Translations under genes and position numbers: made by a program
Part shown: positions 18,424 to 25,159 of the stretch, piece by piece
Numbering within the stretch: position 1 is the stretch's first letter
How the letters are laid out: the number at the start of each line of letters is the position of its first letter
The notes under the pieces: generated by a model
Told to the model about the DNA's origin: nothing
Database searches by the model: none
What the model saw: the letters and a program-made list of their open reading frames with translations, nothing else
Source of the DNA: Brachybacterium muris
GTDB lineage: Bacteria; Actinomycetota; Actinomycetes; Actinomycetales; Dermabacteraceae
NCBI RefSeq assembly: GCF_016907455.1
Contig: NZ_JAFBCB010000001.1
Location: 2,790,001-2,854,000, forward strand
Direction of reading: 5' to 3'
Length of the DNA stretch: 64,000 nucleotides

Positions 18424-18996
18424 ATGCCCAAGATCATCGGCGGTTCGCTCGAGGAGCACCGCGAACGCACGCGGGAGAAGATCTTCCAGGCGCTGGACGA
18501 GCTGCTGAAGGAGCAGACGTTCGAGCAGATCACCTTCTCCTCGATCGCCGGCGCGGCCGGGGTGGGCCGCACCGCGATGTACAACCACTTCCCCGACAAG
18601 GACACGCTCCTGGTCGAGTACGCGCTGCACGAGACCTCCGGGTACATCGCGCAGCTGCAGGCAGGCAGTCAGGCCGCCACTCCCCGCGAAGCGGCGCTGC
18701 AGTACGTGCGCACCCAGTTGGAGCTGACGGTCTCCTTCCACATGCCCCATTCGGTCAGCCGCAACCGGCTCACCGCGGAGACCGCCGCGCGGATGCGCGA
18801 GCACGTGGTGCTGATCGAGGACGTGCTGCGGCGCATCGTGCGCGCGGGGATCGACAGCGGGGACTTCGCCGCTGATCTGGACCTCGATGCGACGGTGCGC
18901 ATCATCAACGGGCTGCTGATCGGCACCGCCCCGGGCCGCTTCGACCAGCAGGCCCTGGAGGCGTTCGTCCTGAGGGGGCTGGGCGCCGAGGTCTGA
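18424..18996 (+). CDS. TetR family transcriptional regulator
   Basis: 190 residues. The N-terminal TetR helix-turn-helix is at about 14-60 (ITFSSIAGAAGVGRTAMYNHFPDKDTLL). The rest is a helical ligand-binding and dimer domain that I cannot assign to a subfamily. The start is fixed by the -10 box six bases upstream (leaderless). The neighbour downstream is convergent, so the gene is monocistronic; the inverted repeat in its promoter suggests autoregulation. The ligand and other targets are unknown. Confidence 0.9.
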   Translation: MPKIIGGSLEEHRERTREKIFQALDELLKEQTFEQITFSSIAGAAGVGRTAMYNHFPDKDTLLVEYALHETSGYIAQLQAGSQAATPREAALQYVRTQLELTVSFHMPHSVSRNRLTAETAARMREHVVLIEDVLRRIVRAGIDSGDFAADLDLDATVRIINGLLIGTAPGRFDQQALEAFVLRGLGAEV

Positions 18997-19019: not shown

Positions 19020-21590
19020 TCAACGCTTGTCGGTGCTGTCGTCGTCCCAGTCCATCGCATCGAGGGTGTCCTCGCGCTGATCCTCCTCGCCGCGACGGGC
19101 GAACAGCGGGCGGGAGCTCTCCTCCAGCTCGTCCTCGAGGTCCACCTCGGGGGCGGTGGCCGAGGCGACCCAGCAGGTCCCGGCGATCACCAGTGCCACC
19201 ACGGCCACGCCCCAGCGCAGGAACGGGCCGGAGCCGTCGATGACGATCCCCACCATGGACGACACCGCGACGGCGGAGACCAGGGTGCCGGTCAGCAGCA
19301 GCGCCGGGGCCACCGAGCCGATGCTGGAGCGCAGCACACCGGTGAGAACCGCACCGCCCAAGGCGCCGGAGTGTCCCCAGGAGCCCGGGCCTCCGTAGCG
19401 CCCGGCGGCGATCAGGTCAGCAGCGCCGTTCATCGCGGCCGCGGATCCGTGGGCCCACAGGCCCAGGCCCGCCGCGGCGAGCACCAGCCCGGCCACGAAG
19501 CCGGGCAGCGCGGAGACGCCGAACCCGAAACCGGCCACCACCGGAGCCAGGACGGCCAGCGCCAGCGGGGTGATGGCGGCGCGACGCAGACCGTAGGTGA
19601 GGTCGTCCAGCATCACACGGTCCCGGGAGGCGAGCATGCTGGCGCGGGTCTCCACCACAGCGGCGGCGCCGGCACGGCGCGAGGCATCCAGCAGGGACGC
19701 GGTGACCAGCAGCACCGTCACCACGCCCAGGCCGATGCCGGCCAGCAGCGGGAGCGCCTGCGGGGTGAGGGCGTGCAGGGCACGGTCCTCCCACACGGTG
19801 GCCGCGCGGGGTGCGGCCTGCACAGCGGCCACGATCGGGCCCAGCAGCGGCAGTGCCGCGAGGGCGGCCACCAGCAGCAGTGCCGTGCGGGGACCGGTGC
19901 CGGCGGAGGTCGCGGCCTCGCGCACGGCGGTCGAGGTGCCGCGGCGGTCCAGCAGGGCCGGGGCGGCGAGGGAGCCCGCGAATCCCAGGGTCACCACCAG
20001 GGCGCCGAGTCCGGCGTAGGCGACCAGCGCGAGGGCCAGGCCGGGGACGCCGGCACTGAGGACGCTGAGGGCGACCAGCACCAGCAGCACCAGGCCGAGG
20101 GCGAGGGCGGCGGTGAGGGCGGTGGAGCCCAGGGCCGCGGCGGTGCCGAGGGCTCCGCCGGTGCGGCTGGTGCGGGCCGCGCGCAGCACTGTGCCACTGC
20201 GGCGCTCCCCCGTGGTGTCCATCAGCAGCAGCGCAGCCAGTGCAGCAACGGCTCCCAGGGCGATCGCCCCGGCCACCACGGCGCTGGGCGAGACGGTGTG
20301 CAGGGTCAGCACGTCCAGGAAGGCCCCCGCGTCGCGGGAGTCGTCGGTGACCGAGACCCACTGGCCCATGTCGGTGACGGCCTGCTCGATCTGCGGCACC
20401 ATCTGCTCGCGCGGCAGCGGCTCCGGGCCGGCGACGGCCGGGTCGGTGAAGCTGCCCATGCCCACGTGGCCGAAGCGCAGCGACTTGTACTGGGTGGGAA
20501 GCCACAGGGCTGCGGCGGCCACGGTGAGTGAGCCGCCCAGCACGGCGGGCATCAGGCCGTTCATGCGCAGGGAGCTGCGTTCGCGACCATCGGGCATGCG
20601 GTGCGGGATCACGGCGGCGGCCGCGGCGGTGAGCATCGCGGCCCCCAGGCCCAGCAGCACCACCAGGATGCCCTCGGCGGCGATCACCGGCACACCCAGG
20701 ATCATCCCGGAGGCGGCCAGTGCCACGGTGAGGAGCACCAGGTCGGCCGCGCGGCCCCCACCGTGGCGCACGATGCGGGCGGTGAGCTGGTGCTCGGCGC
20801 CGAGGTTGTCCTCGGCGTCGGCCTCCAGGTCGTTCTCGTCGGTGCCCACCAGCACGGCCGAGGCCGCACCGGCGGTCTCCAGCGGTGCCGAGCACACGCG
20901 AACGGCCAGGGCGGAGATCGCCACACCCGCGGCAAGGGCGATCAGTGCGGTGCTCGCCTGCTCGCGCAGGAACCACACGGCGATGACCACCGGCAGCACA
21001 CCGAGGGCGAGCGCCCCGGTGATGCTCAGAGCACCCAGGCGACCCACGAGGGCCTCACGTCGGCGGGGGCCGACCGACAGCGCGGCGACCTGCAGGGCCA
21101 CCCCGCGCCAAGCGGCCAGCGGCCCCAGCAGCAGGCCGGCCAGCAGCAGGGCTGCGCGCAGGATGCGCTGGTCGGTGCTGCCGGGCACCAGGTACGCCAG
21201 TACCGCTACCGGGATCCCCACCCCGGCGGTGACCACACCGATGGTGGACAGCTGCGCGCCCAGGCGGCGGGCCAGGCCCGGGTCGGCGACCAGATCGGTC
21301 ACCTCGTCACTGTCCTCGGACTCGGCTGGGACGACGCGTGAGGCGGATCGTGAGGAGCGCTTGCGGGGGGCGACGGCACGCTTGCCCTTCGGCTCGTCCT
21401 CGTCGAGATCGATGTCGAGGTCGTCGTCGAGATCGCCCTCCGTGGAGGCGGCTGTCGCGGGACGGTCGTCGCGGCGCAGGCGGCCGGGGACCACGGCCCC
21501 GGCGATCAGGGCGAGGATGGACAGCAACGCCAGGACCAGCAGGGTCACGGCGATGTCGTCCCCGAGGGGGTACTGGGTGATGAGGTCCAC
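19020..21590 (-). CDS. degenerate membrane pyrophosphatase (HppA-like) lacking catalytic residues
   Basis: 856-residue membrane protein with about 16 hydrophobic segments and acidic tails (about 50-70 and 815-856). Several blocks line up with H+-translocating pyrophosphatases recalled from memory. Residues 258-299 match the DDPRN...DNVGDNVGD...AADLF...MILG block without gaps, keeping N262, AADL and MILG. Residues 638-649 resemble the GAVVEEVR segment, 680-684 are LAPVV, and 719-760 follow AWDNAKK...GGKGS..H...GDTVGDP. Nearly all Asp, Lys and Glu residues that bind Mg-PPi are replaced: TARIVRH for VGDNVGD, GGPGS for GGKGS, GAVLTGV for GDTVGDP, LRSSIGS for FKDTAGP. Hydrolysis is therefore not expected. 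GTG start 21590. A hairpin separates it from the upstream gene. Role unknown. Confidence 0.72.
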   Translation of the reverse strand: MDLITQYPLGDDIAVTLLVLALLSILALIAGAVVPGRLRRDDRPATAASTEGDLDDDLDIDLDEDEPKGKRAVAPRKRSSRSASRVVPAESEDSDEVTDLVADPGLARRLGAQLSTIGVVTAGVGIPVAVLAYLVPGSTDQRILRAALLLAGLLLGPLAAWRGVALQVAALSVGPRRREALVGRLGALSITGALALGVLPVVIAVWFLREQASTALIALAAGVAISALAVRVCSAPLETAGAASAVLVGTDENDLEADAEDNLGAEHQLTARIVRHGGGRAADLVLLTVALAASGMILGVPVIAAEGILVVLLGLGAAMLTAAAAAVIPHRMPDGRERSSLRMNGLMPAVLGGSLTVAAAALWLPTQYKSLRFGHVGMGSFTDPAVAGPEPLPREQMVPQIEQAVTDMGQWVSVTDDSRDAGAFLDVLTLHTVSPSAVVAGAIALGAVAALAALLLMDTTGERRSGTVLRAARTSRTGGALGTAAALGSTALTAALALGLVLLVLVALSVLSAGVPGLALALVAYAGLGALVVTLGFAGSLAAPALLDRRGTSTAVREAATSAGTGPRTALLLVAALAALPLLGPIVAAVQAAPRAATVWEDRALHALTPQALPLLAGIGLGVVTVLLVTASLLDASRRAGAAAVVETRASMLASRDRVMLDDLTYGLRRAAITPLALAVLAPVVAGFGFGVSALPGFVAGLVLAAAGLGLWAHGSAAAMNGAADLIAAGRYGGPGSWGHSGALGGAVLTGVLRSSIGSVAPALLLTGTLVSAVAVSSMVGIVIDGSGPFLRWGVAVVALVIAGTCWVASATAPEVDLEDELEESSRPLFARRGEEDQREDTLDAMDWDDDSTDKR

Positions 21591-21622: not shown

Positions 21623-21648
21623 GCGCCGACCCCGCGCGGGGTCGGCGC
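21623..21648. terminator. GC-rich hairpin between the thioredoxin/NHL gene and the pyrophosphatase-like gene
   Basis: GCGCCGACCCCG (21623-21634) and CGGGGTCGGCGC (21637-21648) form a perfect 12-bp stem around CG, seven bases after the NHL gene stop (minus strand). There is no T-run. It probably reduces read-through into the next gene. Confidence 0.6.
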
Positions 21649-21654
21649 AGCGGG

Positions 21655-23574
21655 TCAGGCGAGCAGGGAGAGGTCCAGGTGGTCAGGGCCGCCCTCGACC
21701 ACGCGGATCGGGACCCCCCAGTCCTGCTGGTGCATGTGACAGGCGGGGAACTCGACGGTGGGGTCCGCGTCGCAGGAGGCGGCGCGGGCGTTGACGTGCA
21801 GCACTCCCTCGGTCATGGCGGGGTCCAGCTCGAGCACGCGCTCCAGCTCGGTGCCGGTACCGGCACCGTCGCGGATCATGCTCGCCGGGGAGGTGGTGAT
21901 CGACACCTGCGTGGAGGGGCCCAGGGAGTCGTCGAGCTTGTGGCCCTCGGGCGGGGTGAACAGCACCCGCACCGTGAGCGGGCCGGGGCCCACCTCGGTG
22001 ACGGGCCGTTCGGAGCGCTGGGCGCCCTCGTCGATCACGCGCTCGGCAGCCTTGGCCACCGGCACCCACGTGAGGCGGTGCGCGCCGGACTCCACGACGA
22101 TCAGCTGGCCGATGCCGTCCACGGGCGGGCCGACGCGGGCGTCGGAGGGCTCGCGCAGGTCGGTGGCGACGGTGACGACGGTGGCGCTGTCGTCCTCGGC
22201 GCCGTGCTCGTCGATCAGGCGGATCGCTCCGTTGTAGGTGTCGGCCACGGCGATGCGGCCGTCGGGAAGGGCGGTCACGCCCAGTGGATGCTGCAGGCGG
22301 GCGGTGGCGGCTGCGCCGTCCACGTGGCCGTAGTCGAACAGCCCCTCACCCACCAGCGTGCTCACCCGCATCACACGCGGGTCCAGGATCCGCACGGCGG
22401 AGGTCTCCGAGTCGGCGATCACCAGGCGGCCATCGGGCAGTTCGTCGACACCGGAGGGCTGGGCCCACCAGGAGCCGACGACGGGACCGTCCACCAGACC
22501 CTCCTGGGTGGTGCCCGCGAGGACCGCGAGGCCCTGGACCACGGGGTCGAACATCCACATCTGATGGATGCCGGCCATGGTGATCACGGAGCGGTTCAGC
22601 ACGGTGGACCAGGCCAGGTCCCAGGGGGTGGACAGGTCGAAGCTGCGGGGGTCGTCCTCGCCGCGGGGCAGGGGCCGGCCCTGCATCCACTGCTGGCCGG
22701 TGCCGGCCACGGTCATCACCTCAGTGGCGGTGCGGGCCCGCAGCAGGCGGTCCTGCCCCAGCTTCACGCCGCGCAGCAGGTGGTTAGCGGTATCGGCCAC
22801 CAGCAGGTCGTAGCCGACCTCCTCAGCCACCTCCTCCGGCAGCTCCAGGACACCGTTGGGCTCCGCGAAGCGGGCCTGCTCGGCGTCACCGTCGACGTGC
22901 CCCCGGATGCCCTCACCGATCACCTCGTCCACGGTGACGCCGTCGGGGCGGAACACCACGATGCGGTGCTGGCCGGCGTCGGAGACCACCACGCGGCCAT
23001 CGCGCAGGGAGGTCACCTTGGAGGGGTAGCGCAGGGTCTGCGGGGTGCGCTCGGTGAGCACGGTGGGGGCGGGGCCGCGACGCAGGGACCCGTCGGCCTC
23101 CCCCTCGGCGACGAGCCGCTCGATCAGCGCATCGAGGTTCGCGGCATGGCCCTCACCGGAGAGGTTCCCGGCGATGCGGCCATGGGTGTCCAGCACCATC
23201 AGGGTGGGCCAGGCGCGGGCGCCGTACTCGCTCCAGGTGCGCAGCTCGGGGTCGTCCAGCACGGGGTGGGACACCTCGTAGCGCTCGATGTTGTCGGCCA
23301 GCGCTTCCGGGTCCTTCTCGAACTCGAACTTCGGGGAGTGCACGCCGATGACCACCAGCTCCTGGGACCACTTCTCCTCCAGGGGCCGCAGCTCGTCCAG
23401 CACGTGCAGGCAGTTCACGCAGCAGAAGGTCCAGAAGTCCAGCAGCACGATCTTGCCGCGCAGGTCCTCCAGGTCCAGCTCGACGCCGCCGGTGTTGAGC
23501 CAGGCCCGTCCGCGCAGGGGCGAGCCGTGCGCGCGTGCGGACAGGGGCTGCGAAGGATCGGCCGGAGTGCTCAT
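21655..23574 (-). CDS. thioredoxin-like domain plus NHL-repeat beta-propeller protein
   Basis: 639 residues, no signal peptide, so probably cytoplasmic. Residues 20-160 are a TlpA/redoxin fold with the active-site pair Cys52-Cys55 (FCCVNC) and a cis-Pro region (RAWPTLMVLD). From about 185 to 500, NHL-type repeats recur (GRVVVSDAGQHRIVVF, YDLLVADTANHLLRG, GRIAVADTYNGAIRL), forming a propeller. The C-terminal beta-rich part (about 530-639) resembles a thiol-disulfide domain appendix. The architecture is that of NHLRC2-like proteins. I chose ATG 23574; a GTG five codons earlier is possible. Thiol-disulfide exchange is inferred; no partner is known. Confidence 0.88.
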   Translation of the reverse strand: MSTPADPSQPLSARAHGSPLRGRAWLNTGGVELDLEDLRGKIVLLDFWTFCCVNCLHVLDELRPLEEKWSQELVVIGVHSPKFEFEKDPEALADNIERYEVSHPVLDDPELRTWSEYGARAWPTLMVLDTHGRIAGNLSGEGHAANLDALIERLVAEGEADGSLRRGPAPTVLTERTPQTLRYPSKVTSLRDGRVVVSDAGQHRIVVFRPDGVTVDEVIGEGIRGHVDGDAEQARFAEPNGVLELPEEVAEEVGYDLLVADTANHLLRGVKLGQDRLLRARTATEVMTVAGTGQQWMQGRPLPRGEDDPRSFDLSTPWDLAWSTVLNRSVITMAGIHQMWMFDPVVQGLAVLAGTTQEGLVDGPVVGSWWAQPSGVDELPDGRLVIADSETSAVRILDPRVMRVSTLVGEGLFDYGHVDGAAATARLQHPLGVTALPDGRIAVADTYNGAIRLIDEHGAEDDSATVVTVATDLREPSDARVGPPVDGIGQLIVVESGAHRLTWVPVAKAAERVIDEGAQRSERPVTEVGPGPLTVRVLFTPPEGHKLDDSLGPSTQVSITTSPASMIRDGAGTGTELERVLELDPAMTEGVLHVNARAASCDADPTVEFPACHMHQQDWGVPIRVVEGGPDHLDLSLLA

Positions 23575-23653
23575 GGTGCCAGTGAACACCGCCGCGGCGC
23601 ACAGATGCCAGTCAGCGTGATATCTGCCGGTCGGTACGCCACGTGCAGGGGGC

Positions 23654-24358
23654 TCACCAGGTGGCGATCCATTCCAGCAGGGCAGGGTCCTCCAGGGAGG
23701 TCAGGGCGAGGTCCGCCGGCGGTGCCGCCATGCCCGGGGCGGGGACAGCGATCAGCCGCAGCCCGGCATCGCGGGCGGCCCGCGCACCGGTGCCCGAGTC
23801 CTCGAAGGCCAGGGTGTGCTGCGGCGCCGCACCGAGGGCCTTCGCGGCCGCGGCATACATGTCGGGGGCGGGCTTGGGGTTCTCGACCGTGTCCGAGGCC
23901 TCCAGCACAGTGAAGTGCTCCCGCAGGCCACCGGTGGTGAGCTTGCCCTCCAGTGCTTCGAGCCAGGAGTTGGAGGCGCACCCCACCGGCACCTTCGCGG
24001 CCACGGCCCTCACCAGTGCCGCGGCACCGGGCATCGTCTCGATCCCAGCGGACAGCTCCTTGTCGAAGGCCTCGTGCAGGCGGGCCAGCACCTGGGGCTC
24101 GGCGGTGCCGGAGCGCTCGGCGATGATCCGGGCGGCGGTCTCGATGGTGGAGCCGTGGAGGTGCTCGTCGTCCTCGGCGGTGAGCTGGGCGTCCAGTTCC
24201 TCGACCACCACGTCCTGGGCGCGGTACCAGGAGGACTCGGTGTCCAGCAGCAGGCCGTCGCAGTCGAACACCACGGCCTGCGGGGTCCAGGTGCCGAACG
24301 CGGAGGTGAAGTCCTGCAGGGTGCGGGTCCCGGGGCTGCTGTCGTGCGGGGCGCTCAT
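23654..24358 (-). CDS. HAD-superfamily hydrolase, beta-phosphoglucomutase-like (copy 2)
   Basis: 234 residues. Motif I is VVFDCDGLLLDTE (nucleophile and acid/base Asp), motif II is the Ser in GCASNS, and motifs III/IV are KPAPDMY and LAFEDSGTGARAA. It is a subclass I HAD with a helical cap, most like sugar-phosphate phosphatases or beta-PGM. ATG 24358 overlaps the stop of the upstream paralogue by four bases; the two proteins share the same motifs and the C-terminal LEDP.L.EWIA pattern, so they arose by tandem duplication. The substrate is unknown. Confidence 0.88.
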   Translation of the reverse strand: MSAPHDSSPGTRTLQDFTSAFGTWTPQAVVFDCDGLLLDTESSWYRAQDVVVEELDAQLTAEDDEHLHGSTIETAARIIAERSGTAEPQVLARLHEAFDKELSAGIETMPGAAALVRAVAAKVPVGCASNSWLEALEGKLTTGGLREHFTVLEASDTVENPKPAPDMYAAAAKALGAAPQHTLAFEDSGTGARAARDAGLRLIAVPAPGMAAPPADLALTSLEDPALLEWIATW

Positions 24359-25074
24359 GCGGTGGGCTCCCATCGGGCAATCCATTCCTGGAGCACCGGG
24401 TCCTCCAGGGAGGCGATCCGGCGCGGGGCTCGGGGGTCCTGACCGGGCAGGGACGGCACCGCGATCAGCTGCAGCCCGGCGCCCAGGGCGGAGGCGGCAC
24501 CGGTCTCGGAGTCCTCGAAGGCGAGGCAGTCGGCAGGGTCGGCCCCCAGCATCCGCGCTGCCTGCGCGTACATGTCCGGGGCGGGCTTGGGGTTCTCGAC
24601 GTCCTCCACCGCCACCTGGGCGGTAACGAACTCCGCCAGGCCCAGGGCGTCGATCTTGAAGGCGAGCTCCTCGCGCGGGGAGTTGGAGGCGACTGCGACG
24701 GGCCGCACCGAGGCGATGGCCCTGACGGTCTCGTACGCGCCGGGCATGGGCACCATCTCCGTCTCCCGGCGGGATTCGCGGTGGGCGTGGAGCAGCTCGT
24801 CGGCGACGGCGTAGGGGTCCTTGCCGATCAGCTCGGCGATCGCCACGATCACCACGTCCGCAGCGCGCCCGGTGAGGGAGCGGCGGGTGACGGGGTCGAA
24901 GGCGGCGTCGTGCCGGGCCAGGTACTCGTCCTGCAGCGCCACCCAGGCGGCCTCGGTGTTCACCAGCAGCCCGTCGCAGTCGAACACCACGGCCGCGGGC
25001 GTCCAGGCGGGGGGCCAGGTGTCCAGCGGGGACGGGGCGAGGGCAGGCGGAGGGGAAGCGGGGTCGTTGCTCAT
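24355..25074 (-). CDS. HAD-superfamily hydrolase, beta-phosphoglucomutase-like (copy 1)
   Basis: 239 residues with a Pro-rich N-terminus (about 25 residues), then VVFDCDGLLVNTE, VASNSPREE, KPAPDMYAQAA and LAFEDSETGAASA, the HAD motifs I-IV. The Asp-X-Asp pair is intact. It is the upstream member of a tandem pair with the gene at 23654 and is coupled to it by ATGA. I chose the start at MSNDPAS; a further upstream start is not supported by a ribosome site. Substrate unknown. Confidence 0.87.
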   Translation of the reverse strand: MSNDPASPPPALAPSPLDTWPPAWTPAAVVFDCDGLLVNTEAAWVALQDEYLARHDAAFDPVTRRSLTGRAADVVIVAIAELIGKDPYAVADELLHAHRESRRETEMVPMPGAYETVRAIASVRPVAVASNSPREELAFKIDALGLAEFVTAQVAVEDVENPKPAPDMYAQAARMLGADPADCLAFEDSETGAASALGAGLQLIAVPSLPGQDPRAPRRIASLEDPVLQEWIARWEPTA

Positions 25075-25159
25075 GATGGGGCCAGCGTATCCAGGCACCC
25101 TGGACGACGTGAGGGACACCTCTCCCCTCCCTTGCCTCTCGTTCCTGCCCGACCTTCGC

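Follow-up and report, generated by a model that had tools for sequence, protein, structure and literature searches.

Our analysis concerns one gene in a 64,000-nucleotide stretch of the Brachybacterium muris genome (the window; positions 2790001-2854000 of a single 3.65-Mb contig), which encodes a relative of the membrane-bound pyrophosphatases (mPPases). We are highly confident that its product, here called the pseudo-mPPase, is a maintained pseudoenzyme of mPPase fold, belonging to one clade found in Brachybacterium and in three or more sister genera of the Dermabacteraceae. The computed basis for this is sequence homology, the predicted fold, the loss of catalytic residues and of most gate residues, purifying selection, a fixed place among the neighboring genes and a shift of constraint within the protein, and the picture points to a former pump taken over for a different task at the membrane. 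Our best explanation as a whole adds that the pseudoenzyme would be a scaffold or receptor that docks the NHLRC2/SOQ1-like protein encoded beside it, and we give this combined explanation an even chance of being correct.

The initial annotation had described an intact open frame encoding a catalytically dead mPPase relative. The frame is indeed intact (856 residues, 19020-21590), and the homology was borne out by profile comparison. The Pfam model H_PPase (PF03030) matches the window protein at E 1.5e-5 and 24.3 bits, below its gathering cut-off of 29.7, which some relatives of the protein pass, and the NCBIfam sodium-translocating pyrophosphatase model matches at E 1.3e-13 and 49.9 bits, far below its cut-off of 912. 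Alignment of a profile of 30 pseudo-mPPases with one of 15 active mPPases from the Dermabacteraceae, the protein's own bacterial family, gave an hhalign probability of 99.8 and an E of 1.9e-30 over 659 columns (residues 103-826). A model built from the active proteins scores the window protein at 42.9 bits, whereas 401 control copies, shuffled or reversed, all went unreported, which means that hydrophobic composition does not account for the homology; against the same model nine of 38 pseudo-mPPase sequences remain weak matches, above E 1e-3. For membership in PF03030, the sequence homology is thus significant over the full length, and the predicted model has the mPPase fold that had been anticipated, with low confidence from residue 821 on. 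By our count on this model there are 17 transmembrane helices, all 16 of the mPPases and a 17th. The full-length homology, the helix order and the predicted fold resemble those of the solved mPPases (VrPPase, 4a01 and 6afx; TmPPase, 5lzq; PaPPase, 8b37), as do the SRTG that in Brachybacterium precedes helix 10, the LVGxxE with which helix 5 ends and, in most sequences, R5.50 and D6.50. The active HppA of Brachybacterium, from the same superfamily and genus, aligns nearly end to end and, in the alignment, also has a 17th helix; unlike the pseudo-mPPase, it carries every catalytic motif.

The active set consisted of 16 proteins picked from 19 Dermabacteraceae genomes with an active hppA (L052, L053 and L059 were not picked), of which L056 was dropped by a filter requiring DTVGDP, leaving 15; the invariance of DTVGDP in this set is therefore partly due to selection of the set. 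The 30 pseudo-mPPases exclude contig-cut copies, frame-broken copies and some genomes added later; one of them (L034) began with 53 residues in the wrong frame, none of them at a counted site; these were present in the alignments behind the site and constraint counts and were removed from the 30-protein alignment and from the comparison with the distant genera. Residues follow the numbering table in PMC6882861. According to PMC10897367, the attacking water in mPPases is held by D16.39 and D6.43, and the gate is formed by E6.53/57, D6.50, S6.54 and D/N16.46. In the 30 pseudo-mPPases the place of D6.43 is never Asp (Arg in 27, His in two), nor is that of D16.39 (Ser, Ala, Asn or Gly in all 30). 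K12.50 is gone and K16.38 is replaced by Arg in every sequence; the place of the semi-conserved Glu (E6.53/57) holds Ala, Leu or Met, and that of K16.50 Leu, Val or Ile, likewise in all 30. The earlier claim that nearly all Asp, Lys and Glu residues binding Mg and pyrophosphate had been lost therefore holds: among the columns invariant in the active set, the pseudo-mPPase majority keeps none of nine Lys, none of five Glu, 4 of 16 Asp and one of eight Asn. Compared with mPPases, the catalytic Asp/Lys/Asn set, K16.50 and the semi-conserved Glu are all missing. What is retained includes R5.50 in 25 of the 30 (His in the rest), D6.50 in 24 and a small number of positions close to the former substrate loops, including the Asp at the place of VrPPase D507 (28/30).

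The substitutions by Arg raise the idea that PPi (pyrophosphate) or another phosphate is still hydrolyzed by a rebuilt, metal-free arginine active site, since D6.43 and K16.38 have become Arg and three further arginines (R476, R638 and R649, cytoplasmic by our topology) are invariant over 38 sequences. We consider this very improbable. No conserved acidic or nucleophilic set is seen there. Three of the five members from distant genera lack the glycine loop GRYGGxGSWxH, and a fourth has lost part of it. The columns that hold an invariant D, E, K or N across 14 active enzymes vary more than the average column of the pseudo-mPPases (1.51 against 1.14 bits). The window's genome also has a soluble pyrophosphatase (Ppa), so the pseudo-mPPase is not needed for PPi removal.

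The gene is kept by selection. Full-length open frames occur in 31 of the 38 Brachybacterium genomes; in the other seven, three copies have frame breaks and four are cut or lost at contig ends. Ratios of nonsynonymous to synonymous substitution rates (dN/dS, Nei-Gojobori) were computed for 406 pairs of 29 pseudo-mPPase genes (L066 left out); the six closest pairs gave 0.09-0.22 at dS 0.12-0.32, and the next few up to 0.39. Purifying selection acts on the pseudo-mPPase between close species, in agreement with the initial annotation, which had favored a maintained pseudoenzyme over decay. The gene clearly evolves faster than the active enzyme. Identity to the first sequence of each set is 83-89% for 12 of the 14 other active proteins, against 57-66% for most pseudo-mPPases. 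This speed and the broken frames are what a decaying relic of an mPPase gene would also show, an idea to which we give almost no credence in view of the full-length frames, the low dN/dS between close species, the motifs invariant over four genera and the fixed gene order; one of the broken copies (G023) comes from an assembly of 85% completeness.

Constraint is also distributed differently. We ranked 710 alignment columns by entropy within each group (30 pseudo-mPPases; 14 active proteins, the divergent L065 being omitted), with membrane sides and region limits set by us from the model helices and the established mPPase topology. The mean rank of the core helices (5, 6, 11, 12, 15 and 16) is 0.36 in active and 0.54 in pseudo-mPPases, and that of the extracytoplasmic loops, with only 49 columns, is 0.63 and 0.41, respectively. 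There is no correlation between the two rankings (rho 0.04), and the core shift was reached in none of 5000 permutations. Over 38 sequences that include the distant genera, strongly shared columns number 22 of 104 in extracytoplasmic regions, 32 of 261 in outer helices, 18 of 150 in cytoplasmic loops and 19 of 191 in the core (extracytoplasmic versus core, Fisher p 0.013). Outer features strongly shared among the 38 are W363-x-P-x-x-Y-x-x-L-R, G377, D383, R394, D426 and W600-x-D-R-x-L; together with W363 just in front of it, loop 8-9 contains P365, Y368, R372, G377, D383, R394 and D426, which are kept across four genera. On the inner side E252, R476, R638 and R649 are invariant, as is DLxD after the last helix, in the C-terminal tail (38/38). 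Constraint is shifted from the core to the extracytoplasmic loops and a few basic or acidic cytoplasmic positions, which, together with the enlarged loop 8-9 and the acidic C-terminal tail, sets the pseudo-mPPase apart from mPPases.

This distribution bears on whether the barrel conducts another solute without hydrolysis, as a passive channel or secondary transporter, which we regard as a rather unlikely role. All 16 mPPase helices and the 17th are predicted, the central gate pair R5.50/D6.50 is kept in most sequences, and 51 of the 91 placed positions conserved across the family sit in helices. Yet the six ion-conducting helices show the weakest constraint in the pseudo-mPPases and the strongest in active mPPases, and at the level of 80% of the 30 sequences helices 9, 10, 11, 12 and 14 conserve no charged residue and no His, Asn, Gln, Trp or Tyr (helix 15 conserves one Trp). 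With the mPPase frame kept, catalysis and most of the gate dropped, the core relaxed, and two outer loops and a few inner charges held, the protein has the appearance of a scaffold or receptor rather than a pump. That it is a scaffold or receptor and not a transporter we put at slightly under an even chance. Judged by its residues, the protein would have lost PPi hydrolysis and mPPase-type ion pumping, with another role kept by selection; it may then display its conserved outer surface as a membrane scaffold or receptor.

The pseudo-mPPase gene is present, whole or in part, in 37 of the 38 Brachybacterium genomes (in G001, G005 and G006 a contig end truncates the copy), and its absence from G025 is not established because that assembly stops within the neighboring gene. 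Elsewhere in the Dermabacteraceae it occurs in genera g23 (4 of 4 genomes), g24 (1 of 1) and g25 (1 of 1). A search of 396 sampled genomes of the phylum with the 30-protein profile (E <= 1e-36) matched the window's genome only. In 386 genomes of the order (E <= 1e-40) 41 matched: 32 are Dermabacteraceae with the pseudo-mPPase gene, G066 of the same family matched through an active mPPase, and eight lie outside the family with partial matches to the second half (6e-41 to 6e-43), of which the three read (G206, G042 and G344) are of active type. Both searches first scored two candidates per genome; absence elsewhere, including genera g26 and g27, is supported and not proven, because the copy in G061, located through gene order, was missed even with all candidates scored. 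Plasmids gave no match to the pseudo-mPPase.

An active hppA was detected in 18 of the 38 Brachybacterium genomes, patchily within the genus, and in the g26 genome. The initial annotation had proposed that a pseudo-mPPase could regulate a true HppA. A regulatory subunit forming heterodimers with HppA would agree with mPPases being homodimers (PMC6882861) and with the pseudo-mPPase gene being seen in 17 of the 18 Brachybacterium genomes that have hppA. As a general role this is already contradicted, and we think it highly unlikely: the other 20 of the 38 Brachybacterium genomes, 16 of them at least 99% complete, carry the pseudo-mPPase gene without a detected active hppA, as do six genomes of three other genera, and the two genes lie at separate places in the 18 genomes that bear hppA. 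The window's genome is among the 20; it has no other H_PPase match and one soluble pyrophosphatase, the Ppa. In a quick tree of 21 sequences all nine pseudo-mPPases form one clade (support 100) outside the active proteins and not nested in the active Brachybacterium HppA. A recent duplication of a Dermabacteraceae hppA was considered as the origin and rejected on this placement, and the long branches do not allow a donor to be named.

The gene directly upstream encodes a protein with Thioredoxin_8 and NHL Pfam matches, a CC(I/V)NC motif and NHL repeats, which it shares with human NHLRC2 and with SOQ1 of the Arabidopsis chloroplast; its best solved relatives are SOQ1 (7djj, E 1e-79) and NHLRC2 (6gc1, E 8e-57). 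It precedes the pseudo-mPPase gene on the same strand in 23 loci (21 of 21 surveyed, G061 and the window), with a gap of 10-150 nucleotides in 18 of the 23. In five loci of genera g23 and g25 the stop and start codons overlap (ATGA or TGATG) in four and are 4 nucleotides apart in one. The thioredoxin-NHL protein, with a stop codon that in some genera overlaps the pseudo-mPPase start, is the obvious candidate partner, and the two genes are probably co-transcribed. A consensus scan found no terminator in the 64-nucleotide gap of the window, and read-through is likely and not certain given the 11-bp inverted repeat there. The neighbor has no clear transmembrane segment (0 or 1 in a crude hydropathy count) and is taken to be cytosolic; the pseudo-mPPase may dock or anchor it. 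We name it as the partner only tentatively. A cysteine redox relay between the two was tried and set aside: at most 19 of the 38 sequences share any one Cys column, which argues against a thiol relay.

We know of no report of NHLRC2 or SOQ1 working with an mPPase-like protein. PMC6107167 describes the molecular function of the NHLRC2 family in mammals as unknown, plant SOQ1 as a fusion of HAD, thioredoxin-like and NHL parts, and a bacterial NHLRC2 homolog as having no conserved neighbors in seven genomes, with a HAD gene in one actinobacterium. SOQ1 carries a HAD domain, and two HAD-like genes precede the neighbor here. All 21 surveyed loci have one or more HAD-like genes ahead of it; the sequences read for L109, L110 and L114 do not extend far enough to show a second, which a wider stretch reveals for L109.

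Several findings weigh against our explanation. The old gate pair is largely kept over the 38 sequences (Arg in 31, Asp in 30), which residual conduction could explain; the p value of 0.013 is modest, and the region limits of the constraint tests were drawn by us. dN/dS rises with distance, to a median of 0.55 over the 406 pairs against 0.20 over 78 active hppA pairs, so constraint is weaker on the pseudo-mPPase gene than on the active enzyme, although values for distant pairs are in our view hard to read because of a strong third-position G+C bias. The frame breaks in G022, G023 and G027 may be real or assembly errors. A neighbor-like gene is found in 71 of 99 sampled genomes of the order (E <= 1e-20), some through the thioredoxin part only, and being common without the pseudo-mPPase it does not need it; at 10 such loci outside the family tblastn found no pseudo-mPPase match nearby. 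No pseudo-mPPase gene was found in g26 (one genome) or g27 (two genomes), and g27 keeps the order HAD-HAD-NHLRC2-like-TetR without it. In the window's own genome the 11-bp hairpin might end transcription between the two genes.

The most specific form of our explanation is that the mPPase fold now serves a bacterial NHLRC2/SOQ1 module as its dedicated membrane receptor. The pseudo-mPPase and the NHLRC2/SOQ1-like protein would be translationally coupled, and the outer loops would bind an extracytoplasmic ligand or envelope partner, with a signal or position relayed to the HAD phosphatases as well as the thioredoxin-NHL protein; we consider this doubtful. If true, the mPPase superfamily would gain its first pseudoenzyme within the literature searched, a search that returned no described inactive mPPase homolog (most subscription papers were outside its reach), and a bacterial NHLRC2 homolog its first membrane partner. 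A fold kept across genera without its chemistry would show the mPPase fold serving beyond PPi-driven pumping. The clade offers a natural test of which mPPase parts are structural, and its fixed link to the NHLRC2/SOQ1-like gene a bacterial handle on that protein family. For annotation, a match to the H_PPase model should not be named a pyrophosphatase without the catalytic residues.

Table 1. Features of the pseudo-mPPase locus, in window coordinates
Feature	Position	Strand	Remarks
TetR-family regulator gene	18424..18996	+	convergent with the pseudo-mPPase gene
Pseudo-mPPase gene	19020..21590	-	856 aa, GTG start
C-terminal acidic tail, residues 812-856	19023..19157	-	with DLED and PLF
Place of catalytic Asp 16.39 (VrPPase D731), here Ser755	19326..19328	-	joint alignment
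Extracytoplasmic loop 12-13, residues 593-612	19755..19814	-	conserved W600-x-D602-R603-x-L605
Extracytoplasmic loop 8-9, residues 364-434	20289..20501	-	enlarged relative to active mPPases
Place of catalytic Asp 6.43 (VrPPase D287), here His276	20763..20765	-	joint alignment
Loop after helix 1, residues 43-103	21282..21464	-	acid-rich, poorly ordered; short in most relatives
Perfect 11-bp inverted repeat	21623..21648	-	within the 64-nt intergenic gap upstream of the pseudo-mPPase gene; not followed by a T run
NHLRC2/SOQ1-like gene	21655..23589	-	NHL repeats and a thioredoxin-like domain bearing CCVNC; immediate upstream neighbor of the pseudo-mPPase gene
HAD-family phosphatase-like gene	23654..24385	-	in conserved gene order
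Second HAD-like gene	24355..25119	-	by similarity to the first; 31-nt overlap with it

The HAD-HAD-NHLRC2/SOQ1-like order (21655-25119) is kept in the Dermabacteraceae loci that were read, brings together the parts that plant SOQ1 has in a single fusion, and was not seen in g26. The intergenic gaps of other species differ from that of the window in length and sequence. At three loci outside the family the open frames that follow the NHLRC2-like gene were read; by their look, two of the loci would encode a heme oxygenase there and the third a HAD hydrolase. Among the active proteins, L065 (G013:C76) is divergent and retains the mPPase motifs; it shares 36% identity with the first of the other active ones in the family, sits on a very long branch (1.96) and possibly belongs to another mPPase class. 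L117 (G066:C27) is an active mPPase within an open frame of 1359 aa, a putative fusion.
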